Assembly: GCA_000961595.1 (NCBI GenBank)
Contig: LADO01000052.1
Coordinates: 1 to 56,742 of the forward strand
Length of the DNA: 56,742 bases
Source: Peptococcaceae bacterium BRH_c4b
GTDB lineage: Bacteria > Bacillota > Desulfotomaculia > Desulfotomaculales > Desulfocucumaceae
Direction of reading: 5' to 3'
In this document: in pieces, positions 28,668 through 42,941 of the stretch
How the letters are laid out: the number at the start of each line of letters is the position of its first letter
Numbering within the stretch: the stretch's first letter is position 1
The notes under the pieces: model-generated
Database searches by the model: none
Seen by the model: the letters and a program-made list of their open reading frames with translations, nothing else
What the model was told of the DNA's origin: nothing
Program-made: the position numbers and the translations under genes

Positions 28668-29597
28668 TTAGTCTTCAAATTTGGGGCGGGGGTAAAGTCC
28701 GCAGCGCTGGACGATTTCAGGAATGATTTCCTCCCAGGCGATGGCCATTACGTGCACCCCGTGCACACCTTTAATATTATCCTTAATGTAATTAATCTGC
28801 TCTATGCAGAGATCCACGCCCTCTTTCTTGGGATCTTCGGCAGATTTCAGGCGCTGTACAATTTCTTCCGGAACAATCATCCCCGAAACGTTGCTCTGCA
28901 TGTATTTGGCTCCACGCCAGCTCTTCAGGGGTGTTACTCCAGCCAGTATATGGGTGCGCTCATGCAGTCCACGCTCCCGCACCATCTCCATGAAGCGCTC
29001 AAACCGCTCCATGTCAAATATGCACTGGGTCTGGATAAACTGAGCTCCCGCCTCCACCTTCTTCTCCAGACGATCCACCCGGAATTCGAAGGGATCGGCG
29101 AAGGGATTGGCCACCGCACCAATGAAGAACTGCGGCTCATGCTCTTTAATTTCCTCGCCGGAGAAAAACTTTTTCTCGTCCCTCATCCTTTTAACAAGGT
29201 AGATGAGTTGCATGGAGTCCACGTCATAGACGTTCTTGGAGGTAGGATGGTTGCCAAATTTCTGGTGGTCACCGGAAAGACACAGCAGGTTGCGCATGCC
29301 CAGACTGTATGCACCCAACATGTCCGCCTGCATGGCTATGCGGTTCCTGTCCCGGCAGGTCATCTGCACGATCGGCTCAATTCCGCAATCCATGACGTGA
29401 ACACCGGTGGCTATACTGGATATGCGCACGATGGCCGTCTGGCAGTCAGTGATATTGGTAGCATCCACATAGTCTTTCATCATATGGGCATGGTGCCGGA
29501 CACCTTCGGCAGATGCATGCTTGGGCGGACCTATTTCAGCCGTAACGGCAAAATTACCGGTTTCCAGAACCTGTTGAAGTTTGCTCAAGTATTTCAC
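28668..29597 (-). CDS. metF: Methylenetetrahydrofolate reductase, flavoprotein subunit MetF
   Basis: 309 residues, TIM-barrel MTHFR family: TAEIGPPKHAS near 19 with the catalytic Glu, the THF/FAD-binding regions NITDCQTA, QMTCRDRN and LCLSGDH, and QTQCIFD near 205. It reduces 5,10-methylene-THF to 5-methyl-THF in the methyl branch. The GTG start overlaps the metV stop (GTGA), so translation is coupled. It has no NADH-oxidising partner of the classical MetF type; the neighbouring MetV, MvhD and Hdr proteins supply electrons, as in Moorella-type complexes. Confidence 0.93.
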   Translation of the reverse strand: MKYLSKLQQVLETGNFAVTAEIGPPKHASAEGVRHHAHMMKDYVDATNITDCQTAIVRISSIATGVHVMDCGIEPIVQMTCRDRNRIAMQADMLGAYSLGMRNLLCLSGDHQKFGNHPTSKNVYDVDSMQLIYLVKRMRDEKKFFSGEEIKEHEPQFFIGAVANPFADPFEFRVDRLEKKVEAGAQFIQTQCIFDMERFERFMEMVRERGLHERTHILAGVTPLKSWRGAKYMQSNVSGMIVPEEIVQRLKSAEDPKKEGVDLCIEQINYIKDNIKGVHGVHVMAIAWEEIIPEIVQRCGLYPRPKFED

Positions 29598-30265
29598 CCT
29601 ATGATCACATCCTCCCTAGTGGCCCGGCGCGGCCCGCCGTCACGAGACGTGGACCAGTCCTTGGGCGGCTGGATTTCCATCAGTTTATTCAGTTTGCCCA
29701 GAGTCTTCATGCGTTCGTAAATAAGTGCCCAGGCACAGTCCGTATCCTTGCTGATCTCGCATTTACCGTACTGGGAACCTCCACAGGGCCCGTTCAGTAT
29801 GCTCTTGGAACAGCGGATAATGGGGCAAATTCCTCCGGTTTTGTGCAGCACGCAGTCGCCGCAAAGGCCGCATTTTTCTTCCCATATACCATGCACTGTG
29901 GAACCGCCGATAAAGTTGGTATTCAATGCCGGAACCACCCATTTATCACTGTAACGCTCAGCCACGTACTGTACTCCCACACCGCAGGCCAGCGAAATAA
30001 TGGCGTCCACATCCTTGACCATTTCATCCATTTCCGCAATGTATTCGGGATCGCACTGCCTGGTGGCCGTAAATGTCACGGTGGTCAGCGGGTTCTCTTC
30101 CAGACGGCGCTTTATGCGCAGCGCGGAAGACATAACCTCTGTTTCCTTTTCACCACCGGAAAGACACACAGTAACACAGCCGGCGCAACCAACCAGCAGC
30201 ACTTTTTTACAATCACTGACCATATCAGCAATTTCCTGAAGGGGTTTTTGCTGGGCTACAATCAT
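29594..30265 (-). CDS. metV: MetV, iron-sulfur/zinc partner of MetF
   Basis: 223 residues. The N-terminal half contains KVLLVGCAGCVTVCLSGG. The C-terminal half has the MTHFR_C cysteine cluster CGLCGDCVLHKTGGICPIIRCSKSILNGPCGG. MetV binds [4Fe-4S] clusters and links MetF to its electron donor. ATG directly follows the stop of mvhD (30266), and its own stop overlaps metF, so mvhD-metV-metF are tightly coupled. Pairing with an HdrA and MvhD upstream supports a bifurcating reductase complex. Confidence 0.92.
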   Translation of the reverse strand: MIVAQQKPLQEIADMVSDCKKVLLVGCAGCVTVCLSGGEKETEVMSSALRIKRRLEENPLTTVTFTATRQCDPEYIAEMDEMVKDVDAIISLACGVGVQYVAERYSDKWVVPALNTNFIGGSTVHGIWEEKCGLCGDCVLHKTGGICPIIRCSKSILNGPCGGSQYGKCEISKDTDCAWALIYERMKTLGKLNKLMEIQPPKDWSTSRDGGPRRATREDVIIG

Positions 30266-30706
30266 TTATGCGTCACCTTCCTTCTTTTTGGCCCCGCTTT
30301 TATTCAGCGGGCTGGGCCCCAGGGATTTGATGCGTTCGGTCATTTCATTAGCTATCTGGGCAAACCGTCCGCCCTGAGCGGAGGATAAATTAAACATTTC
30401 CAGGCGGTCTCCTCCGACACCTATCTCGTCCAGTAATTTCTTAACCGCATTTACTCTCTTTCTGGCGCGGATATTACCTTTCAAAAAGTGACAGTCGCCT
30501 TCCATGCATCCGGCCACATACACTCCATCGGCCCCTTCTTCAAAAGCCTGCAGGAGTACCCTGTGATCGGTGTTACCCGTACAAGTCATCTCAACTATTC
30601 TGATATTTGGAGCGTACTGCAATCTCATCGAACCTGCCAGGTCCGCAGCAGAATATGCTCAGTAGTGGCAGCAGAAGGCAACGATTTTTGGTTCAAAATC
30701 GCCCAT
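30266..30706 (-). CDS. mvhD: MvhD-like [2Fe-2S] protein with selenocysteine at codon 16
   Basis: 146 residues when the in-frame UGA at 30661-30659 is read as selenocysteine. The N-terminus is MGDFEPKIVAFCCHYU followed by AYSAADLAG. The UGA falls exactly where the paralog at 39467-39910 has Cys in [15 protein letters not shown]. The second motif AGCMEGDCHF near 67 keeps its Cys. A 7-bp hairpin begins 13 nt after the UGA. The start is ATG one nt after the hdrA::gltD stop, with GGAGGTG 8 nt upstream. Starting instead at the ATG 30628 would remove the first metal-binding motif. MvhD couples HdrA to an electron-donor module; archaeal VhuD is a known selenoprotein. Confidence 0.9.
30629..30645 (-). 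promoter_or_regulatory. Putative bacterial SECIS hairpin of mvhD (first copy)
   Basis: CGGACCT, loop GGC, AGGTTCG (one G-U pair) starts 13 nt after the UGA and puts the apical loop about 21 nt downstream, as in known bacterial SECIS elements. Confidence 0.6.
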
Positions 30707-30707
30707 T

Positions 30708-33700
30708 TTATTGCACCTCCTTGTAAAGAGCCTTTACCATATTAATGTATGCCTTGTCGTTATAGCTTTGTAGTGTAATGGCTTTGTTCGGACATTCACC
30801 GGCACATGTGCCGCAGCCCTGACAGATCACGGCTTCGATCTGGGCCGCGTAATTAACCACCTTCGGTGCGTTATAGGGACACAGGCGTACGCAGGTAAGA
30901 CAGGCGGCGCATTTTTCCGGCTCCACCACGGCCACCACGCCGTGCGACTCCAGCTTATCCTTGGCCAGTATGGTACAGGCCCGGCTTACCGCAGCCCTGG
31001 CCTGGGCAATATTTTCTTCAATAGTCTTGGGTCCATGAGCGAGACCGGCCATGAAAATACCCTCGGAGGCAAAGTCCACCGGACGCAGTTTCATATGTGC
31101 TTCCAGGAAGAAGCCGTCCTCATTCACCGGGATCTTAAATAGTTCGTTCATTTTTTTATTGTCCGTCGCGGGCAGTATGGCAGCAGCCAGTCCCACCACA
31201 TCGGCTTCAACAATTACAGGAACTCCCAGCACATGATCGGTTACGGTAACCTTCACTTTGTCACCGACCGCCTCCACCAGAGGTTTGTTGTCCAGGCTGT
31301 ATCGTATGAAGATAACTCCCTTGCGCCTGGCTTCTGTGTACATTTCTTCATAAAAGCCATAGGCCCTGATATCCCTGTACAGCACGAACACGTTGGCACC
31401 CGGATGCTCATCCTTAATTTTAATGGCCAATTTAATGGACTTGGTGCAGCATACCCGGCTGCAGTACATGCGTTCTGGCTCCCGGGAGCCCACACACTGG
31501 ATTAAAACCACGTTCTTGGCCGAGGTAACTTTTGCATCACCTGCAGCCATTGCTTCTTCCAGTTCCAGTTGGGTCATCACCCGACCGTTTTGTCCGTACA
31601 GGTACTCGGTGGGCTTATATTCCTCACCGCCGATGGCGACAATTACCACGCCGTGTTTAATCTGCTTACCATTACTTAGTCTGGTGTTAAAGTTCCCCAC
31701 AAAGCCCGATGCTTCCTGCAACTCGGTGCCGGTAAATACTTCTATTTTCGGGTTGTTATTTACTTTGTCGATCAGTCCGCAAAGATAAGCCTGGATGTCT
31801 TCACCGGAAAGACCCTGTTTAATTCTGTTAGCCACCCCGCCAAGCTGGTTGGTTTTTTCCACCAGATACACGTTGTAGCCCTGATCGGCAAGGGAAACTG
31901 CACTATTCATACCGGATAGTCCGCCCCCGATAACCAGCGCGGATTTTGTTATATCCACCGGCTGTTGATGGATGGGTTTCAGCAAGGCAGACTTGGCCAC
32001 AATCATTTTCACCAGATCCTTGGCTTTTTCCGTAGCTTTCTCGGGCTCGTGCATATGCACCCAGGAACACTGGTCCCGGATATTGGCCATGTCGAACAGA
32101 TAGCGGTTCAGGCCAGCCTCCATCAAGGTTTCCTGGAACAGCGGCTTGTGCGTACGCGGGCTGCAAGAGGCAACCACCACGTGATTAAGGTTGTGTTCTT
32201 CGATCATCTGGCGCATAGTGGCCTGGCTATCCTGGGAGCATACATAGAGGTAGTCGCCGGCGTAAACAACATTGGGCAACTTTTTAGCCATTTCCACCAC
32301 TTCGGGTACTTTGACCACCCCGCCGATGTTAATGCCGCAATGGCACACAAACACACCAATACGAGGATCTTCACCAGTTACATCCCTTTCAGGCGGGTAT
32401 ACCTTTTCTTTGATCAATGTACCCCGGGATTCCGACAGCAAACTTCCCGATGCACCGGCAGCAGCGCTGGCCTGCAAGACGGTTTCGGGAATGTCCTTGG
32501 GTCCGGCGAAGGAACCAGCAATATATATACCTGGTTTGTTGGTTTCCACTCCTGTTAGGGCGGCTGTTTCGGCAAAGCCGAATTTATTCAATTCCACGCC
32601 CAGTTTGTTGCCCAGTTCTATAACCTGCTTGGAAGGCTGCATGCCCACGGAAAGCACAACCATATCGAATTCCTCGGTATGGATATTGCCTTCTTCGTCA
32701 GAATAACGGATCACCAGGTTTTTATTTTCGTCCATGGTTTCAGAGACTGCATAAATCCTGGAGCGTACAAAATTTACACCGCTTTCGTTTTTGGCCCGCT
32801 CGTAATATTTCTCAAAGCCCTTGCCGTGGGTCCGCATATCCATAAAGAATATGGTGGTATCCAGCGGGTCATGGCTATGCTCTTTGGCTATGACGGCTTC
32901 CTTAATGGCGTACATGCAGCACACTGAGGAGCAGTAGCCGTGCTCTTGCCTGACGTTGCGGGAGCCCACGCACTGAATCCAGGCAATTCTCTTCGGTTCC
33001 TTATGGTCAAAGGGGCGCACCAGATGTCCCTGGAATGGTCCGGACGCGCTTAAAACCCTCTCAAACTCAAGGCTTGTCAGCACGTTGGGGAACCTGCCAT
33101 AACCATAATAGGGAAGTTCGGAGGCGTCGTATTTTTCAAAGCCGGGACAAAGGACCACTGCGCCTACATTTATCTCTATTTCCTTTTCCTGGTCATCGTG
33201 CTTAACGGCATCCGCCAGGCATGCTTTTTCGCACTCCAGGCACTCGGAGCAAACGCCGCAATTCAGGCAGCGCCCGGCTTCCTTTTGGGCCTGCTCAAGG
33301 GTATAGCCGTTGGATACTTCCACAAAGGAAGTGCTCCTGGCGGATATATCCGCATGGGAGGCATGTTCCGGTTCCTGGAATGGTATTTCTTCATCCTCAA
33401 AGCGGAAGGGAGCAATCTCCTCCTCCGGCACGCCGAATTGCCTGCCCTCTTTGAGATCTTTACCTTCAATATATAAATCTATAGATTCTGCGGCAACTTT
33501 ACCTGCGCACACAGCCTCAATAACTGTTTTGGGTCCGGTTACAGCATCGCCGCCGGCGAATACTCCGGGCATTCCAGTGACCAGGGTATCCTTATCGGCC
33601 ACGATGGTGTTGCCCCTGCCTTTGGAGATACCAGTATCATCTATTGCTGAAACGTCCGGCTGCTGGCCCACAGCCAGTATAACGGTATCCACATCGATGA

Positions 33701-35150
33701 AAAAATCGCTGCCGGTCACCGGTACCGGGCTTCTTCTGCCACTGGCGTCGGGTTCGCCCAGCTCATTTTGCAGGCACTCCATTTTACTCAGTTTTCCACC
33801 ATCGCCGTGGAATGTCTTGGGGCTGGTGAGCATGGTGAATACCACGCCCTCTTCCTTGGCCTCCTCGATCTCTTCCGGCAGCGCGGTTATTTCCGCCTCG
33901 GTCCGGCGGTATACGATGTGTACCGCCTCCGCGCCCAGCCGCAAAGCTGTTCTGGCGCAGTCCATGGCCGTGTTGCCGCCGCCTATGACGGCAACTTTCT
34001 TGCCAATTTCAACCTTTTCGCCCAGAGCTACCTGCCTGAGGAAAGGCACTCCATGAATGACCCCGGCCAGATCTTCACCGGGAACTCCCAGTTGGGTTCC
34101 CTTGTGGGCGCCTATGGCCAGGAACACGGCGGAATAGCCGCCATCCATCAAGCCCTGTACGGTTATGTCCTTGCCCAGACGGGTGTTGTATTTAATCTCC
34201 ACACCCATTTTTTCCAGTAGATTAATTTCCAGCTCCACCAATTTTTTGGGCAGTCTGTATTCCGGTATGCCTACCCTCATCATGCCGCCGCCCACCGGCA
34301 GGGCTTCAAAAACAGTAACCCCGTACCCTTTTTTGATCAGTTGGTAGGCTGCTGAAAGTCCGGCCGGTCCGGCTCCTATAACAGCCACCTTTTTCCCTTT
34401 GGGTTCCGCTTTTTCTGGCAGCGGTAGTTCGTCCAAGTTATTATAAGCGTAATCCGCGGCCACCCTTTTAAGCTGCATAATGTTTAGCGGCTCATCAACG
34501 TTGCCGCGGTAGCACTTGGACTGACAGGGGTGGGTGCACACCCTGCCGCAGGCCGCCGGGAAAGGATTGTCCCGGTATACCATCTGCCAGGCCCTGGTGT
34601 ATTCGCCTTTCTTGATTAACTGAATATAGCCCTGGGCATTGACACCTGCGGGGCAGGCGGCCCGGCAGGGCGGTGTGCCGACTTTGTCCAGCATGAAAGC
34701 ATTGGGGAAAGCCTGGGGATAGTGTTTATAGGCCGCCTTACGGGTTCCCAGACCCTGGTTGAACTCGCTCTTTACCTCAACCGGGCAGGCATTTGAACAC
34801 TCACCGCAACCCTTACATTTATCCACGTCCACGAAACGGGGACGCTGTTTTATTTTAACCTTAAAATTACCGGGCTCTCCCTGTAAATCCATCACATCAG
34901 CCAGTGTATAGGTCTCTATGTTCAGATGCCGCCCGCATTCTACCAGCTTGGGTGACAGGATGCACATAGAACAGTCGTTGGTAGGAAATGTTTTGTCCAG
35001 CATGGGCATGGTCCCGCCGATGGCCGGGGAATTCTCCACCAGATATACATAATATCCGGACTCAGCCAAATCCAGCGAGGCCTGGATGCCGGCGATGCCT
35101 GCGCCAACCACCATTACTGCCCCTACTTTCTCGGTACTCATAGGCATCAC
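30708..35150 (-). CDS. hdrA: HdrA fused with an internal GltD/NfnB-like NAD(P)H oxidoreductase module
   Basis: 1480 residues. Residues 1-150 are HdrA (GAGIAGIQASLDLAESGYYVYLVEN; NDCSMCILSPKLVECGRH; CKGCGECSNACPVE). At about 157 the HdrA alignment stops and a complete glutamate-synthase-small-subunit-like module follows: CRAACPAGVNAQGY and CGRVCTHPCQSKCYRG iron-sulfur motifs, FAD fold VIGAGPAGLSAAYQL near 256, NAD(P)H fold VIGGGNTAMDCARTALRLGAE near 388, and FAGGDAVTGP near 548. HdrA sequence resumes near 640 (CLNCGVCSECLECEKACLA) through the second FAD fold and C-terminal ferredoxins. The insert is about 480 residues compared with the 1002-residue paralog. It lies between the hdrD-like gene and mvhD in the same transcript. 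In-frame ATGs at codons 2 and 4 are alternatives to the GTG start. Confidence 0.92.
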   Translation of the reverse strand: MMPMSTEKVGAVMVVGAGIAGIQASLDLAESGYYVYLVENSPAIGGTMPMLDKTFPTNDCSMCILSPKLVECGRHLNIETYTLADVMDLQGEPGNFKVKIKQRPRFVDVDKCKGCGECSNACPVEVKSEFNQGLGTRKAAYKHYPQAFPNAFMLDKVGTPPCRAACPAGVNAQGYIQLIKKGEYTRAWQMVYRDNPFPAACGRVCTHPCQSKCYRGNVDEPLNIMQLKRVAADYAYNNLDELPLPEKAEPKGKKVAVIGAGPAGLSAAYQLIKKGYGVTVFEALPVGGGMMRVGIPEYRLPKKLVELEINLLEKMGVEIKYNTRLGKDITVQGLMDGGYSAVFLAIGAHKGTQLGVPGEDLAGVIHGVPFLRQVALGEKVEIGKKVAVIGGGNTAMDCARTALRLGAEAVHIVYRRTEAEITALPEEIEEAKEEGVVFTMLTSPKTFHGDGGKLSKMECLQNELGEPDASGRRSPVPVTGSDFFIDVDTVILAVGQQPDVSAIDDTGISKGRGNTIVADKDTLVTGMPGVFAGGDAVTGPKTVIEAVCAGKVAAESIDLYIEGKDLKEGRQFGVPEEEIAPFRFEDEEIPFQEPEHASHADISARSTSFVEVSNGYTLEQAQKEAGRCLNCGVCSECLECEKACLADAVKHDDQEKEIEINVGAVVLCPGFEKYDASELPYYGYGRFPNVLTSLEFERVLSASGPFQGHLVRPFDHKEPKRIAWIQCVGSRNVRQEHGYCSSVCCMYAIKEAVIAKEHSHDPLDTTIFFMDMRTHGKGFEKYYERAKNESGVNFVRSRIYAVSETMDENKNLVIRYSDEEGNIHTEEFDMVVLSVGMQPSKQVIELGNKLGVELNKFGFAETAALTGVETNKPGIYIAGSFAGPKDIPETVLQASAAAGASGSLLSESRGTLIKEKVYPPERDVTGEDPRIGVFVCHCGINIGGVVKVPEVVEMAKKLPNVVYAGDYLYVCSQDSQATMRQMIEEHNLNHVVVASCSPRTHKPLFQETLMEAGLNRYLFDMANIRDQCSWVHMHEPEKATEKAKDLVKMIVAKSALLKPIHQQPVDITKSALVIGGGLSGMNSAVSLADQGYNVYLVEKTNQLGGVANRIKQGLSGEDIQAYLCGLIDKVNNNPKIEVFTGTELQEASGFVGNFNTRLSNGKQIKHGVVIVAIGGEEYKPTEYLYGQNGRVMTQLELEEAMAAGDAKVTSAKNVVLIQCVGSREPERMYCSRVCCTKSIKLAIKIKDEHPGANVFVLYRDIRAYGFYEEMYTEARRKGVIFIRYSLDNKPLVEAVGDKVKVTVTDHVLGVPVIVEADVVGLAAAILPATDNKKMNELFKIPVNEDGFFLEAHMKLRPVDFASEGIFMAGLAHGPKTIEENIAQARAAVSRACTILAKDKLESHGVVAVVEPEKCAACLTCVRLCPYNAPKVVNYAAQIEAVICQGCGTCAGECPNKAITLQSYNDKAYINMVKALYKEVQ

Positions 35151-35295: not shown

Positions 35296-36525
35296 TTATT
35301 CTTTCTCCGGCAGAATTAGCGCCCTCTCCATCAGTGCGCACATGTGCAAATTCTTGGATTTACCCTTGGTGTCCGGGTACCATTTGTTCATGTCATTGAA
35401 CTGGTCCATGCAGTTATGGCAGGGAACTATAACGATACTCGCCCCGGTATCCATAACCTGATCCACTTTACGCTTGCCCTTGAGTTTACGCTTTTCGTTG
35501 AACTCCGGCATGGCCATAGCACCGCCGCCGCCGCCACAGCAGTAATTCATCCTGCCGTTAGGGTTCATGTCAACAAAATTCTTTATAAAGCTCCTGGCCA
35601 GTTCCCTGGGTGCCTCCCATACGCCCTCTTTACGGGCTGTGTTGCATGGATCATGATATGTTACCACTTCGGTAATGGCATCGGGATCTAGCTTGAGTTG
35701 GCCTTCTTTAACCAGATCGTTGAGCAGTTCTAATATATGGCGAATGGGGAACATGGGACCGTCCCAGAATGTCCTCTGACCCCATTTCATAGAACGGAAG
35801 GCGTGACCGCACTCGGTAACGATAAATTCCTTGCAGCCCAGGCGAACAAATTCTTCCCAGACTGGTTTTGATATATCCACAAAATCATCGTTCTGACCGG
35901 TAAACAAAGCGATGTTGGTGGCATCCCATCTCCTTGTGCTGATGGTGTAATCAATCCCTGCAGCATAAAAAATCTTCAAAGTAGTCTGCAGTTCATTGGC
36001 ATAGATTTTAATATCCCGGGCGTTGAAGCCATAAAAGTACTGGGCTCCTTCCTTATCCAAAGGAATGGTGAAATCAGGGTCGCCCAGTTCTTCACGCATC
36101 TCGTCCTGGATCCACTCCAGAGTCTCTTCATAGTCTTCCTGACCCACGTTCATCTGGTTGCCGGACTCTTTATGCTCCTCGGCAATGGTCTGGAGATAGC
36201 CCGGAATGTTGTCTTTGGTCCGGGAAGCCCCGCGGATGGTACGAACCACGACGGCCACGTTAATCTGCATGGGGCATTCTACGGTGCAGCGCTCACACAT
36301 GGTGCAATACCAGACATAAGGATCCTTCCAGATTTCGTCTTTCAGACCAAGAATCACTTTGCGCAGGAACTTGCGGGGATCCTGATCCTCGTGGACATCC
36401 GAGTAAGGACATCCGGCGGTACACATACCGCAGGCCAGGCACTGCGAAAAATCATAATTTTTCATTAGTGCGCCCAGTTCATCTCTAAAACTGGGGTTGA
36501 TGCTCGAAGCAGTAATTGCTTCCAT
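35296..36525 (-). CDS. HdrD-like (HdrC-HdrB fusion) iron-sulfur protein
   Basis: 409 residues. The N-terminal HdrC-like part has two [4Fe-4S] motifs: CLACGMCTAGCPYSD near 30 and CTMCERCTVECPM near 72. The C-terminal HdrB/CCG-like part keeps one full CCG motif: HDPCN near 294, NYCCGGGGG near 328 and VPCHNC near 372. The first CCG motif of true HdrD is reduced to a lone TECGH near 220. DsrK/HmeD-type proteins share this one-CCG architecture. It sits between flxA and the hdrA fusion, taking the place of separate hdrB and hdrC for this unit. The oxidised substrate, if any, is unknown; a thiol/disulfide or membrane carrier is possible. Confidence 0.85.
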   Translation of the reverse strand: MEAITASSINPSFRDELGALMKNYDFSQCLACGMCTAGCPYSDVHEDQDPRKFLRKVILGLKDEIWKDPYVWYCTMCERCTVECPMQINVAVVVRTIRGASRTKDNIPGYLQTIAEEHKESGNQMNVGQEDYEETLEWIQDEMREELGDPDFTIPLDKEGAQYFYGFNARDIKIYANELQTTLKIFYAAGIDYTISTRRWDATNIALFTGQNDDFVDISKPVWEEFVRLGCKEFIVTECGHAFRSMKWGQRTFWDGPMFPIRHILELLNDLVKEGQLKLDPDAITEVVTYHDPCNTARKEGVWEAPRELARSFIKNFVDMNPNGRMNYCCGGGGGAMAMPEFNEKRKLKGKRKVDQVMDTGASIVIVPCHNCMDQFNDMNKWYPDTKGKSKNLHMCALMERALILPEKE

Positions 36526-36656: not shown

Positions 36657-37499
36657 TTAATATTCGTTGGGTAACTGGTTTAATTCCGCCCTAGTGAAAA
36701 CCGGACCATCCTTGCAAACGTATTTGCTACCCACGTTACAGCGGCCACACATGCCGATCCCGCACTTCATGCGGTTTTCCAGGGACATGATTACTTGCTC
36801 CGGTTTGAAGCCGCACTCTTCCAGCACAGGCATAGTAAACTTAATCATCACCGGCGGTCCGCAGATAATAGCCACGGCGTTGTCGGAACTGGGCGACACT
36901 TCCTTGGTTACGTTGGGAATAAAGCCTACCCTGCCGCTCCAGCCTTCCACCGGACGGTCGATGGTGCACACCAGGTCGATATCCGAACGCTTATCCCACT
37001 CGGCCAGCTCTTCCTTATACAGCAGCAGGCCGGGGTTCCTGGCACCATAGATCACAGTCAGGTTACCGTAATCTCCCCGGTGTTCGGGCTTCAGCATATA
37101 GGTGGCCAGAGAGCGCAGGGTGGTAAAGGCAAAACCCCCGCCGATGATTACAACATTTTTACCCTTCATTTGCTCCAATGGATAATAGTTGCCCAACGGG
37201 CCGCGCATACCTACGATAGTCCCCTCTTCCATCATGTGCAGGGCGGTGGATACCACGCCCACTTTAGCCACGGAAAACTTCAAGTGTCCCGGCTCGGTGG
37301 GTGAGGAGGCAATACCGAAGGGCGCCTCACCTTTACCGAAAACACATATCTCGGCAAACTGCCCGGGCATATAAGGGAAGCTCTTTTCATCCTCTTCGCT
37401 TAAATACTCGAAGGTAAAAGTGTGGATAAGCTTATCCTCGGTCTCGGTAAAGTTTTTCACCAGTTTCATTGGGAGCGGTAGATACGGATTTCTTTGCAT
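36657..37499 (-). CDS. flxA: FlxA-like FAD/NAD(P)H-binding oxidoreductase subunit
   Basis: 280 residues. It has an FNR-like FAD domain (PGQFAEICVFGKGEAPFGIASS near 45), an NAD(P)-binding domain (VIIGGGFAFTTLRSL near 116; IICGPPVM near 220) and a C-terminal [2Fe-2S] motif with four cysteines (CGIGMCGRCNVGSKYVC near 250). Homologs are the gamma subunit of sulfhydrogenases and FlxA of FlxABCD-HdrABC, which oxidise NAD(P)H. The ATG overlaps the stop of flxB (TAATG). It is the electron entry point for the first HdrA/MvhD set. Confidence 0.88.
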   Translation of the reverse strand: MQRNPYLPLPMKLVKNFTETEDKLIHTFTFEYLSEEDEKSFPYMPGQFAEICVFGKGEAPFGIASSPTEPGHLKFSVAKVGVVSTALHMMEEGTIVGMRGPLGNYYPLEQMKGKNVVIIGGGFAFTTLRSLATYMLKPEHRGDYGNLTVIYGARNPGLLLYKEELAEWDKRSDIDLVCTIDRPVEGWSGRVGFIPNVTKEVSPSSDNAVAIICGPPVMIKFTMPVLEECGFKPEQVIMSLENRMKCGIGMCGRCNVGSKYVCKDGPVFTRAELNQLPNEY

Positions 37500-38524
37500 T
37501 ATTTATCCCTCGCTTCCGACCCCAGGATATCCGCCAGCACTTCCCGGATGTCCAGATTCACGGGGCAGTTCTTGATACATCTGCCGCAGCCCACACAAGC
37601 CGTGGCATTGAAATTATCAACGAAATATTTAAACTTGTGCATAACCCGCTGGCGCATGCGCTCCTTGCCGCCGGTGCGAGGATTGTGTCCCGAGCCGTGC
37701 AGGGTAAACAACGGGTACATGCAGGAGTCCCAGTTTCTGATACGGCAGCCGTTGCAGTCCACGGCGTCGTCCACTATGTCAAAACAGTGGCAGGTGGGAC
37801 AGGAATAGGTACAGGAGCCGCAGCCCAGACACTTCTCATGAACACGGTCCCATATCTCATCGTAGAAATTGCCATCCAGCTTGGCCTTCAGCCCCTCAGT
37901 AGTAACTTGGCATGCTACTTCGGCGGCCTCCTTAACCTTAGCGGCGGCAGCATTATCGGCATCGCCGGCGGCGGCTAGTCCCAGCTTGGCGGCCAGTTCC
38001 CTGCCTTTATCGCTGACAGCCTCTACCACGTAATTATCACCGGTATCCACAAGCAGCAGATCCATTCCAGTAGAATCAAATGGACCTGTGTTCATGGAAG
38101 TACAAAAACAGGTGGCGGCAGGATCGTTGCAACCCATGCCCACCAGGATGGTATTGGCACGCCTGGTCAGGTAATAGGGGTCTTCGTATTTATCGTTCTT
38201 GAAGACATTGTCAAGCAGTAGAAGGCTTTTGGCGTCGCAAGGACGAACACCGAAAATTACCTTTTGGGCACTGTCGACACATTCATCCACCCGGGCTCCT
38301 TCAGGGGTCACGCTGTAGCTGAAAAGCTTTTCGGACTGAGGGAAAAGGATTCCCTTGGGTGGGATTTTGGAATTTTTATTGCTGAAATCAGCTTCACTGC
38401 CGGATTTGATTTGCTTGAACAGTGAATACGCGCCTTCTTTGACGGGGGCGTATACCTGATATTCGGCAATCAGTTTATCCAGCAGGCCGGATATTGCGCT
38501 TTTGCTAATGATCATCCTTTTCAC
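37499..38524 (-). CDS. flxB: FlxB-like iron-sulfur subunit (sulfhydrogenase beta / AsrA-like)
   Basis: 341 residues. The N-terminal part includes VRPCDAKSLLLLDNVF and FCTSMNTGP, features of the HydB/AsrA family. The C-terminal part has two [4Fe-4S] motifs, CLGCGSCTYSCPTCHC near 234 and CVGCGRCIKNCPVN near 316. It relays electrons from FlxA. The GTG start is 1 nt past the flxC stop with GGAG upstream. It belongs to the mvhD-flxC-flxB-flxA block. Confidence 0.87.
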   Translation of the reverse strand: MKRMIISKSAISGLLDKLIAEYQVYAPVKEGAYSLFKQIKSGSEADFSNKNSKIPPKGILFPQSEKLFSYSVTPEGARVDECVDSAQKVIFGVRPCDAKSLLLLDNVFKNDKYEDPYYLTRRANTILVGMGCNDPAATCFCTSMNTGPFDSTGMDLLLVDTGDNYVVEAVSDKGRELAAKLGLAAAGDADNAAAAKVKEAAEVACQVTTEGLKAKLDGNFYDEIWDRVHEKCLGCGSCTYSCPTCHCFDIVDDAVDCNGCRIRNWDSCMYPLFTLHGSGHNPRTGGKERMRQRVMHKFKYFVDNFNATACVGCGRCIKNCPVNLDIREVLADILGSEARDK

Positions 38525-38525
38525 C

Positions 38526-39479
38526 TCACTCCTTCACCAGGAAAGGTTGGGGATCGTCGGCGGTGAATTCGTTCAACGCTGGCTTGTCTTCCATGTTGAC
38601 ACCGGCTTCATAGCCAAACAATTCCTTGACTTCCTTAACCATTTTACGGGTTATGCCCCTGAGGTTGATGCCCATGGGGCAGGCCCGGTCGCAGGCGCCG
38701 CAGTCCACGCAGCGGCCGGCCAGGTGTAACACCCTGACCGACTGGAACAGCATATTGTCCGCAGTATCAGGAGCCTTTTCAATCCAAACGGGTGTGGAGC
38801 AGTCTACGAAACATTCAGGGCAATAGCACATTGGGCAGGCGTTACGGCAGGCGTAGCACCTGATGCATTTTGACAAATCCTCGGCCAGCATTTTTTTGCG
38901 CTCCGCCGGGGATTTGGCTTCAAATGCCCTGACATCGTCAAAATTGTCCTCAGCCTTGGCCGGTACCGGCTCTCCGATAAGCATATCGTAGACAACAGGG
39001 GTGCCATAGCAGCAGGTTTTGCAGGTATCATGACAGAGATCTGCCAGTTTTGCCTCCACTGCAAAGCCCTTGCCCTTTAACACCAGGGTATCGCCCTTGT
39101 CTTCAACTTCCAGCAGTTCCTTGCCGTCCAGCAACTCATCAGCCTTGTTCCGGTCAATCATGCCTGAGCACGGAACACCAATGATATAAAGGTTATCCCG
39201 GTTAATCTGGTTTTCCTTGATTAAGGCAACGATGGCACGGGTATCACAACCTTTGGCCACCACGGCCACTTTGCCCTCTCTCTTGCGCAGGTAATTGGCC
39301 AGGTTATTCTCACAGCTGTAATCCCAGGTAAGCTTGCCGGCGTCGCAGGATTTGCGAATAAAGCCTGGTGTGCTGCGGAGGGGCAGGCTGCCCCTGGCAA
39401 AACCTACAACCAGGTCAACCTTCTGATCGTCAAGTAATTTTTTTGCTGCGTCTTGTATCGCCGCCGCTAGTTTTTGCAT
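38526..39479 (-). CDS. flxC: FlxC-like iron-sulfur subunit (FrhB/HdrC-type ferredoxin protein)
   Basis: About 317 residues from the ATG at 39479, which overlaps the end of mvhD by 13 nt with GGGGTG upstream; a TTG two codons earlier is possible. An N-terminal domain with VAKGCDTRAIVALIKENQ and IIGVPCSGMID resembles FrhB/FdhB-type proteins. Two [4Fe-4S] motifs follow: CIRCYACRNACPMCYCPEC near 198 and CVDCGACDRACPMG near 254. It passes electrons between MvhD and FlxB. Confidence 0.86.
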   Translation of the reverse strand: MQKLAAAIQDAAKKLLDDQKVDLVVGFARGSLPLRSTPGFIRKSCDAGKLTWDYSCENNLANYLRKREGKVAVVAKGCDTRAIVALIKENQINRDNLYIIGVPCSGMIDRNKADELLDGKELLEVEDKGDTLVLKGKGFAVEAKLADLCHDTCKTCCYGTPVVYDMLIGEPVPAKAEDNFDDVRAFEAKSPAERKKMLAEDLSKCIRCYACRNACPMCYCPECFVDCSTPVWIEKAPDTADNMLFQSVRVLHLAGRCVDCGACDRACPMGINLRGITRKMVKEVKELFGYEAGVNMEDKPALNEFTADDPQPFLVKE

Positions 39480-39910
39480 CCGCAACTACACCCCGCTTCG
39501 CTGGGAATTAGCCCATTATTCGGGCCCAGTTCTTTTACCTTGTCGGTTACGTCCTTGACCAGTTCCGCAAAACGGCCACCTTCGGCGGCGGACACCCAGG
39601 CAAAATTAATCCTGCCTTCGTCCACGCCCATGTATTCCATCAAACTCTTCATCAGAGCAAATTTCCTTCTGGCCACCAGGTTGCCACTAACATAGTGGCA
39701 GTCACCAGGGTGTCACCCGGAGGTCAAAACGCCGTCCGCACCGTTTTTAACAGCCGACATTATAAAAAGCGGGTTAATCCGGCCTGAGCACGGTATGCGG
39801 ATGACGCGAATATTGGGGGGATACTGAATCCGGCCCACGCCGGCCAGGTCAGCCCCCGCATAGCTACACCAGTTACATAGAAAAGCAACTATTTTGGGTT
39901 CCCATTCCAT
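39467..39910 (-). CDS. mvhD: MvhD/FlxD-like [2Fe-2S] protein with selenocysteine at codon 66
   Basis: 147 residues when the in-frame UGA at 39715-39713 is read as selenocysteine. Before it the frame gives [21 protein letters not shown] (as two blocks, Cys 12 and 15) and IPCSG near 41. Through the UGA it reads [14 protein letters not shown], the conserved GCHPGDCHY motif of MvhD with the first Cys replaced. The frame continues unbroken to a normal C-terminus. A perfect 7-bp hairpin starts 12 nt after the UGA. Splitting it into two ORFs would leave neither piece functional. The start is ATG with GGGAGG 10 nt upstream, 22 nt after hdrA. It is the FlxD part that links FlxABC to HdrA. Confidence 0.93.
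39682..39700 (-). promoter_or_regulatory. Putative bacterial SECIS hairpin of mvhD (second copy)
   Basis: TGCCACT, loop ATGTT, AGTGGCA: a perfect 7-bp stem 12 nt after the UGA, with a GU-containing apical loop as in known bacterial SECIS elements. Confidence 0.75.
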
Positions 39911-39932: not shown

Positions 39933-42900
39933 CTATAGCGCGCTAATCATGGCCATGATTTGTTCGTTGGTGCAACCCTTGACGTTCAGTGCCCCGCAAC
40001 GGCAAGAGGAAGAGCAGGCCCCGCAGCCCTTGCAAAGCGCTTCGTTGACCACCGCCACCTTTTCCGTCGCATCCACGGCTATGGCCTTGGCCGGGCAGAC
40101 GTCCTCACATACGCCGCAACCGACGCACTTTTTCTTGTTAACCATGGCACATTTGCCTTCCACATCAATGGACTCTTTAGCCAGCACGGTGCAGGCACGG
40201 GCCACCGCAGCCTTGGCCTGGGCAACATTCTCCTCCAGGTTTTTGGGGCCGTGGGCAAGGCCGCACATAAACACACCGTCGGTGCCGAAATCCACCGGAC
40301 GCAGCTTCATGTGCGCCTCCAGGAAGAATCCATCCTGGTTCAGAGGAACTTTGAAGAACTGTGACAGTTTGTTGTTCTCGACCGGTACAACAGCGGCAGC
40401 CAGCCCAACAGCATCGGCTTCGATAATCAGCGGCACACCCAGGACGTGGTCGGTTACGGTAACCCTAACCTTGTCCCCGGCAGCTTCCACCACGGGCTTT
40501 TTGTCCACCGCATAGCGAACAAAAATCACACCCTTACGGCGGGCTTCAGTATACATTTCTTCATAGAAACCATACGTCCGGATGTCGCGGTAAAGAATAA
40601 ACACATTGGCTTCCGGGTTGGTTTCCTTTATTTTGAGAGCCTGCTTGATGGATTTGGTACAGCAAATCCGGCTGCAGTACGGCCGCTCGTCATCCCTGGA
40701 GCCTACACACTGGATAAACACGATATTCTTGGCCTTGGCCAGCTTGCCGTCGGCCAGATCGGCCTCCATCTCCAGCAGGGTTTTAACTTTATCGTTTTGC
40801 CCGTAAAGGTACTCGTTAGGCTTGTATTCTTCACCGCCGGTGGCGATGATGGTAACGCCATGCTGAAATTCCACGCCACTGGAAAGTTTGGTCACAAAAT
40901 TGCCCACAAAGCCGTGAGCTTCGGCTATCTCGACACCTGTAAAGACATTGACTAACGGATTAGCGTCAATCTGGGCAACCAGACCGGCTACGTAGGTCGG
41001 AACATCTTCGCCCTTCATGCCGTAGCGGATGCGGTTAGCAATACCGCCCAGACTTTGGGATTTCTCCACCAGGCTGACCTTGTATCCCTGCTTGGCCAGG
41101 TTGAGGGCTGCGTTCATACCGGACACGCCGCCGCCTATAACCAGGGCGTCGTGATTCATACCCAGGCTAATGCCCTGCAGGGGCTCCAGCAGGGAGGCCT
41201 TGGTTACAGCCATTTTCACCAAATCCTTGGCTTTTTCGGTGGCTTTTTCCGGCTCGCTCTGGTGCACCCAGGAACACTGGTCCCTGATATTGGCCATTTC
41301 AAAGAGGTTTGCATTCAGTCCGGCCTCTTTCAGGGTTTCCTGGAACATGGGCTCATGGGTTCTGGGGCTGCAGGACGCAACCACCACCCGGTTCAGGTTG
41401 TACTTTTCTATGGCTTCTTTAATCTGACCGGCTGTATCCTGGGAGCAGGCATACATCTTTTCATCGGAGAAAACAACGCCGGGCAGTGTCTTGGCATATT
41501 CCACAACATCCGGCACCTTAACCACGCTGCCGATGTTGATGCCGCAGTGGCAGATGAATACTCCCGTACGCACTCTCTCTCCGGCCACATCCCGTTCGGC
41601 GGGATACTCTTTCTTTTTCACCAGGGTGCCCCTGGCTTCGGACAGCATGGCAGCCGAATCGCCGGCTGCGGCGCTGGCCTGCATTACTGTTTCGGGAATA
41701 TCCCTGGGTCCGCTGAAAGCACCGGCCACGTAAATACCGGGTTTATTGGTGCCAACACCGGTTAGGCTGGTGGGCTCTGCAAAATTGTATTTATTCAGTT
41801 CGATACCGAGCTTGCCGGCCAATTCGACAATATCCTTGGGAGGCTCAAGGCCGATGGATAGAACCGCCAGGTCGAATATTTCCTCGGAGATTGTGCCGTC
41901 TTCGTTGGCATAGCGTATTTTTACATTGCCGCTGCCATCAAAGGTATCAGTGATTTCATAAACCCGGGAGCGTATGAATCTCACTCCGTGCTCGTTTTTG
42001 GCCCGGTCGTAGTATTTTTCAAATTCTTTCCCGTATGTCCGCATATCCATGAAGAAAATAGCCGTGTCAAGCTCGTAGGGAGTATGTTCCTTGGCAATGA
42101 CGGCTTCTTTGATAGCGTACATGCAGCAAACGGAGGAGCAGTAGCCGTGCTCGATCCTGCAGTTACGAGACCCCACGCACTGAATCCAGGCAACCTTTTG
42201 GGGCTCCTTGTGGTCCGAGGGACGTATCAGGTGGCCGCCGAAGGGACCGGAGGCGCTTAATATACGCTCAAATTCAAGGCTGGTTATTACATTGGGCAGT
42301 TTGCCGTAGCCATAGTAACTCAACTGGCCAGCATCAAAAGCCTCGAATCCGGGCACAAGAATAACCGAACCTATTTGCAGTTCGATGGTTTGATCCTGCA
42401 TGGTGTGGTCGATAGCCCCGGCCTGGCAGGCTTCAAGGCATTTTCCGCAGGCTTTGGGTTTCTTGATTTTTAAACATTTAGTCTGGTCAATGGCATAGGC
42501 ATTGGGATAGGCCTGGGCATATAATTTGTAAATAGCTTTCCTTTTACCCAGCCCCTGGTTAAATTCATCATCCACTTTAACGGGACATTCTTCGGCGCAG
42601 GAACCGCAGCCGGTGCATTTGTCCGGATCAACAAAGCGGGCTTTTGTATTAATGGTTGCCTTAAAATTGCCCGGTTCACCCTGTAAGTCCACAAGCTCTG
42701 AATTGGTCAGCGTCTGAATATTCAGGTGCCGGCCGCAGTCAACCAGCTTGGGAGACAGGATGCACATAGAACAGTCGTTGGTGGGGAATGTTTTGTCCAG
42801 CATAGGCATAGTTCCGCCAATAGCCGGCTGTTTTTCCACCAAATAAACATAATAGCCGGATTCGGCCAGGTCCAGTGAAGCCTGTATGCCGGCGATACCG

Positions 42901-42941
42901 GAACCTAACACCAGCACTGCTCCTACCTTATTAGTACTCAT
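39933..42941 (-). CDS. hdrA: HdrA-like FAD/iron-sulfur electron-bifurcating subunit (long form)
   Basis: 1002 residues with the same plan as the plus-strand HdrA: FAD motif GSGIAGIQASLDLAESGYY, NDCSMCILSPKLVDCGRH, ferredoxins CTGCGSCAEECPVK and CGKCLEACQAG, a second FAD fold near 605 (VIGGGVSGMNAALNLAKQGY), and C-terminal ferredoxins CVGCGVCEDVCPAK and CKGCGACSSSCRCG. The last cysteine motif differs from the other two HdrAs (SSCRCG instead of GECPNK). It is first in the ten-gene minus-strand unit and is followed by mvhD and flxCBA, so it is probably the bifurcating subunit of an Flx-Hdr complex. ATG start; its upstream GGACGGATGTGATGC is also found before the hdrA fusion gene. Confidence 0.93.
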   Translation of the reverse strand: MSTNKVGAVLVLGSGIAGIQASLDLAESGYYVYLVEKQPAIGGTMPMLDKTFPTNDCSMCILSPKLVDCGRHLNIQTLTNSELVDLQGEPGNFKATINTKARFVDPDKCTGCGSCAEECPVKVDDEFNQGLGKRKAIYKLYAQAYPNAYAIDQTKCLKIKKPKACGKCLEACQAGAIDHTMQDQTIELQIGSVILVPGFEAFDAGQLSYYGYGKLPNVITSLEFERILSASGPFGGHLIRPSDHKEPQKVAWIQCVGSRNCRIEHGYCSSVCCMYAIKEAVIAKEHTPYELDTAIFFMDMRTYGKEFEKYYDRAKNEHGVRFIRSRVYEITDTFDGSGNVKIRYANEDGTISEEIFDLAVLSIGLEPPKDIVELAGKLGIELNKYNFAEPTSLTGVGTNKPGIYVAGAFSGPRDIPETVMQASAAAGDSAAMLSEARGTLVKKKEYPAERDVAGERVRTGVFICHCGINIGSVVKVPDVVEYAKTLPGVVFSDEKMYACSQDTAGQIKEAIEKYNLNRVVVASCSPRTHEPMFQETLKEAGLNANLFEMANIRDQCSWVHQSEPEKATEKAKDLVKMAVTKASLLEPLQGISLGMNHDALVIGGGVSGMNAALNLAKQGYKVSLVEKSQSLGGIANRIRYGMKGEDVPTYVAGLVAQIDANPLVNVFTGVEIAEAHGFVGNFVTKLSSGVEFQHGVTIIATGGEEYKPNEYLYGQNDKVKTLLEMEADLADGKLAKAKNIVFIQCVGSRDDERPYCSRICCTKSIKQALKIKETNPEANVFILYRDIRTYGFYEEMYTEARRKGVIFVRYAVDKKPVVEAAGDKVRVTVTDHVLGVPLIIEADAVGLAAAVVPVENNKLSQFFKVPLNQDGFFLEAHMKLRPVDFGTDGVFMCGLAHGPKNLEENVAQAKAAVARACTVLAKESIDVEGKCAMVNKKKCVGCGVCEDVCPAKAIAVDATEKVAVVNEALCKGCGACSSSCRCGALNVKGCTNEQIMAMISAL

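Follow-up and report, generated by a model that had tools for sequence, protein, structure and literature searches.

Does the gene that follows hdrA::gltD in Peptococcaceae bacterium BRH_c4b stop at an early in-frame UGA, or is this codon read as selenocysteine (Sec)? The window analyzed here, that is the whole stretch of 56,742 nucleotides (contig LADO01000052.1, positions 1 to 56,742), carries this gene, mvhD2 (flpD), at 30266..30706 on the minus strand; the initial annotation had given no strand. It had proposed a second MvhD selenoprotein with UGA in the N-terminal CxxC motif, opened by an ATG directly after the hdrA::gltD stop and preceded by a perfect ribosome-binding site. Indeed, the ATG occupies 30706-30704, one base past the TAA of hdrA::gltD (30710-30708), and the ribosome-binding site AAGGAGGTG is located 5' of it (30714..30722, minus), within the 3' end of hdrA::gltD. 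A GGAGG-type site was found in most UGA orthologues as well. With the TGA read through, the frame translates into 146 aa (MGDFEPKIVAFCCHYUAYSAADLAGSMRLQY...) and ends at a TAA stop, with a single UGA at codon 16 (30659..30661, minus); the residues CCHYU and AYSAADLAG are those reported before. The UGA takes the second position of CxxU, and the paralogue at 39910-39467 keeps the motif intact (CNWC), again as described. Without recoding, the longest open reading frame begins at 30628 and lacks the first 26 residues, including the first motif, which had been anticipated.

Homologues of mvhD2 were drawn from 40 related genomes and a set of named genome records; once exact duplicates at the DNA level had been discarded, the orthologue group was defined by FCCHY-type motifs (n=90). 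At the first Sec site 26 orthologues encode UGA, 63 Cys and one Ser. Besides the window copy, 25 sequences, spread over many genera and two phyla, have UGA in this column, aligned with the conserved Cys of the homologues. They include Desulfofundulus thermosubterraneus, D. thermobenzoicus, Desulfotruncus arcticus, D. alcoholivorax and Desulfallas sp., genomes matched to Desulfofundulus australicus, Desulfoscipio geothermicus and Peptococcaceae BRH_c4a, several further Peptococcaceae MAGs, and MAGs of Deltaproteobacteria/Thermodesulfobacteriota. According to the initial annotation, relatives that begin at the downstream ATG with no upstream coding sequence would speak against a selenoprotein; instead, upstream coding is conserved, with either UGA or Cys. 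Six of the 63 Cys members carry UGA at a second site, GUxxGxC, instead. A quick tree required no fewer than eight switches between three states (Sec at site 1, at site 2, or Cys); built from 133 columns, it leaves many forks unsettled and gives the changes no direction. Switching between Sec and Cys as clean as this, within the MetFV-linked lineage, may be less familiar than Sec-MvhD itself. The gene selA was present in all 22 relatives tested, including those with a Cys copy of mvhD2, and therefore loss of the Sec trait does not explain the difference between UGA and Cys.

Two variants in this group deserve mention. The orthologue at L112:9207-9611 (genome G024) encodes Ser (TCT) where the others have Sec or Cys, with a one-residue deletion nearby (CCHYSAYSADLAG), while its genome has kept selA. 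Six loci of the MetFV-linked MvhD group, from Chloroflexota and other members, have the second-site UGA (AGUxxGxC) with CxxC intact.

A bacterial SECIS is a stem-loop just downstream of the UGA whose loop begins with G. Judged against these general criteria of the bSECIS model, mvhD2 contains such an element. The sequence CGGACCU-GGC-AGGUUCG (30629..30645, minus) forms 7 bp around a GGC loop, and its 5' arm starts 13 nt after the UGA, as the initial annotation had read it. The 17-nt core GCGGACCTGGCAGGTTC (30646-30630, nucleotides 13-29 after the UGA) was identical, and at the same distance from the UGA, in 26/26 UGA copies, which range from Desulfotomaculum-type Firmicutes to Deltaproteobacteria, and it occurred in none of the 64 non-UGA orthologues (63 Cys and 1 Ser). 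In the 26 UGA copies, synonymous variation is zero at codons +5 to +9 past the UGA, as against 1.0-2.0 bits in the Cys copies; codons +1 to +4 and from +12 onward are variable in both groups, and elsewhere in the gene 56% of synonymous codon pairs differ among UGA copies. As the UGA sequences are related, these contrasts carry no p-value, and the Cys orthologues, many of the same order, serve as the control.

The third positions of the helix codons +5, +6, +8 and +9 are Watson-Crick partners of bases fixed by the protein, and at codon +7 the third position supplies the G that opens the loop. Such a pattern is what selection on a stem would leave. Because the helix third positions pair with protein-fixed bases, no covariation is visible, and with the core invariant in 26/26 copies there are no compensatory pairs to count. 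In the folding check suggested for this region, the hairpin folded as a single sequence is no more stable than its shuffles (z = 0.2 to -0.9), and 553 of 20,000 random synonymous recodings (2.8%) scored as well as the mvhD2 hairpin. Single-hairpin stability was dropped as stand-alone evidence for this reason. It is the conservation in UGA copies, not the stability of one sequence, that makes the case, and the invariant 17-nt hairpin provides a reliable signature for annotation.

A genome without sel genes would likewise have argued against recoding, but selA, selB, selC and selD were all found in the BRH_c4b genome. The window lies on contig C4; selB (397 bits) directly adjoins selA (613 bits) on C6, selD (390 bits) is encoded on C21, and C42 carries a tRNA-Sec (anticodon UCA). 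The selD gene (C21:23522-24445) has one in-frame TGA itself, consistent with a Sec-containing selenophosphate synthetase.

Because the hairpin is invariant in UGA copies and absent from the others, whose same codons vary freely, we conclude that mvhD2 almost certainly is a selenoprotein gene with a bacterial SECIS and that UGA16 is read as selenocysteine. A profile match across the UGA (see below), the sel genes, the UGA/Cys exchange and the UGA-specific hairpin all bear out what had been proposed for this locus. In the mechanism we propose, the ribosome would start at 30706 and reach the UGA at codon 16, the hairpin 13 nt past the UGA would recruit SelB with Sec-tRNA-Sec, and selenocysteine would be inserted. 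In the loop that joins the first strand to the first helix, Sec16 would thereby stand where Cys is otherwise invariant. From the genomic data we infer that this insertion actually takes place in the BRH_c4b strain.

We also considered that the UGA might act mainly as a regulatory stop, so that mvhD2 would switch with selenium supply between a 15-aa stub and the full-length protein and would control metV-metF as well. Sec readthrough is inherently selenium-dependent, and metV (29594..30265, minus; methylene-THF reductase C terminal, PF12225) and metF (28668..29597, minus; PF02219) follow immediately 3', so that a ribosome stopping at codon 16 could alter how they are translated or how stable their transcript is. 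However, the Sec stands at an invariant Cys position, suggesting a chemical role, and the Cys orthologues have the same operon without the switch. We therefore regard a mainly regulatory UGA as improbable.

By profile and fold, the product belongs to the MvhD/FlpD family. The PF02662 profile spans the UGA (E = 9.6e-47) and, with the UGA read as Cys, matches residues 8-130 over its full length (profile 1-123; E = 3.1e-48, 163.3 bits, gathering cut-off 22.3). Against the archaeal VhuD model NF045873, mvhD2 scores 166.4 bits, below the NCBIfam cut-off of 215 bits; it belongs to the same family as archaeal VhuD and lies outside this narrower model. Aligning 22 sequences, with TGA translated as Cys, shows C13, C/U16, C42, C67 and C72 to be invariant. 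The predicted fold (pLDDT 88.9) has a strand at 8-13, the CxxU loop and a helix at 17-26. The top four PDB hits are without exception MvhD/ElpC chains (E 1e-18 to 1e-19, TM 0.83-0.94), and the fold corresponds to that of MvhD in the Mvh-Hdr, Fdh-Hdr-Fmd and Elp-Hdr complexes.

One could argue that the real protein comprises 120 aa starting from the downstream ATG at 30628, with the upstream stretch untranslated; this ATG opens the default reading frame and is conserved in 26/26 UGA copies. Yet Met27 is also conserved in 57/63 Cys orthologues with an uninterrupted frame and is therefore an internal residue. Starting there would cost the protein its first strand, its first helix and two of the five invariant Cys positions. 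Moreover, a strong ribosome-binding site precedes 30706 and none such precedes 30628, and the codons upstream of 30628 keep the protein sequence while their third positions vary, which leaves the shorter protein very improbable. A default call nevertheless drops these 26 residues of an electron-transfer subunit, and the annotation of sulfate-reducing and syntrophic relatives may hide the same N-terminus. A sequencing error or fresh nonsense mutation in a pseudogene is the least credible reading: one in-frame stop in one assembly would have this look, but the 25 other sequences share the UGA codon, always with the same hairpin, and the remainder of the frame is intact and conserved.

What might a Sec form of MvhD do at this position? 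A [2Fe-2S] cluster is a biochemical feature of solved MvhD homologues (PMC12350162), and it links the HdrA flavin to the modules that donate electrons (PMC12350162, PMC6019823). The mvhD2 product would be the Sec form of this small [2Fe-2S] connector subunit of HdrA complexes. It is plausible that its CxxU contributes a ligand to the cluster, and residue 16 would act as a cluster ligand or as a redox residue.

The gene neighborhood points to candidate partners. On the minus strand, the order is hdrA (39933..42941), mvhD1 (39467..39910, Sec66), four intervening electron-transfer genes, namely FrhB/FdhB-like Fe-S (38526-39485), AsrA/ShyB-like Fe-S (37499-38524), FAD/NAD-binding (36657-37499) and HdrBC-like (35296-36525), then the hdrA::gltD-type fusion (30708..35150), which is an HdrA with inserted Fer4_20/Pyr_redox_2 domains, followed by mvhD2 (Sec16), metV and metF. 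The window thus places mvhD2 between an hdrA, whose stop lies 1 nt upstream, and metV-metF. The same holds for the orthologues: metV was found 3' of mvhD2 in 26/26 UGA copies and in most Cys ones, and metF and hdrA were each near it in 24/26 UGA copies, the rest being near contig ends or unmatched. Clusters of the HdrABC-MvhD-MetVF type have been reported from Moorella and other organisms (PMC5736913, PMC6895022). Based on this gene order, on the connector role of the MvhD [2Fe-2S] cluster and on the clusters known elsewhere, MvhD2 would connect HdrA::GltD with MetFV for methylene-THF reduction or the reverse reaction. By analogy to the Moorella-type cluster we adopt the link to MetFV as its probable working role. 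In terms of mechanism, MvhD2 most likely would relay electrons between the flavoprotein HdrA::GltD and the methylene-THF reductase MetFV, whose genes come directly after mvhD2; both the partners and the direction of electron flow we infer. Elsewhere in the window, a cobalamin riboswitch was detected at 1343-1522 on the minus strand (Rfam RF00174, 106 bits).

The paralogue mvhD1 carries its Sec codon (Sec66) in GUHPGDCHY, with Cys at CxxC. Both paralogues belong to one family, encode Sec and share the hairpin geometry, in which a 3-nt loop begins 20 nt past the UGA. They differ in that mvhD1 has its Sec in GUxxGDCHY together with an 8-bp hairpin, whereas mvhD2 has it in CxxU together with a 7-bp hairpin. 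The mvhD1 SECIS, TGCCACTA-TGT-TAGTGGCA, is common to most site-2 copies with some paired changes; one pair position is altered from C-G to T-A in 7/63. A third FlpD subfamily (FVCNWUAYGAADLAGVSR, seven loci) has UGA at CxxU as well, but its downstream hairpin region differs (CTGGAGTTTCCAG or CTGGCGTGTCCAG). Sec at both sites, scored by alignment columns, occurred in 0/173 sequences of the bacterial sample, an absence that may likewise be less familiar but is confounded with subfamily and, with about 1.7 doubles expected within the MvhD2 group, not significant. The two paralogues of one operon bear Sec at alternative positions of the same fold; that bacteria, unlike archaeal VhuD, never use the two jointly because each tunes electron transfer to a different partner is an idea we consider doubtful. 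The natural Sec and Cys orthologues in the same operon, together with a paralogue that has Sec elsewhere, offer a ready test of the role of selenium at the [2Fe-2S] connector of HdrA complexes.

Sec-containing MvhD/FrhD/VhuD is not new in kind, having been catalogued since 2005-2006, and mvhD2 is a new case of a known selenoprotein family. A search for Sec-MvhD with metV or in Desulfotomaculum and for Sec-VhuD cryo-EM, with subscription journals mostly outside its reach, did not return this exact case. Archaea use a SECIS in the 3'-UTR. The archaeal VhuD shares the family and the CxxU site with mvhD2, but the archaeal form apparently has Sec at both sites with a 3'-UTR SECIS, whereas in mvhD2 the Sec is confined to CxxU and the SECIS is of the bacterial, in-frame type. 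At the two Sec positions, the solved chain 9sfi_K (F420-non-reducing hydrogenase subunit delta) shows CYQX and AGX, that is, X at CxxX and GX; these residues are very likely Sec, since the known Sec of E. coli FdhH is likewise printed as X in the same structure sequence set. In a 2026 review, the family is listed under the motif CxxU, and a single protein may contain up to two Sec (PMC13188914).

Among bacteria, a 2006 survey lists FrhD/MvhD as a selenoprotein family with 19 sequences, including Syntrophobacter, Desulfotomaculum reducens and Moorella, and reports FrhD Sec/Cys conversions in both directions, three each (PMC1794560). For Desulfobacterium autotrophicum, four Sec-mvhD genes (mvhD1, 2, 3 and 5) are named (PMC2702500). 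Such copies resemble mvhD2 in being bacterial Sec-MvhD beside hdrA, and the text consulted gives neither their Sec position nor a metV-metF link (PMC1794560, PMC2702500). A close parallel in gene order is the HdrABC-MvhD-MetVF cluster of Moorella thermoacetica (Moth_1191-1196), in which mvhD adjoins hdrA and metV/metF as in the window (PMC5736913, PMC6895022). Unlike in this cluster, the hdrA next to mvhD2 is a GltD fusion, and ahead of it lies another hdrA-mvhD set, which includes FAD/NAD-binding and Fe-S subunits.
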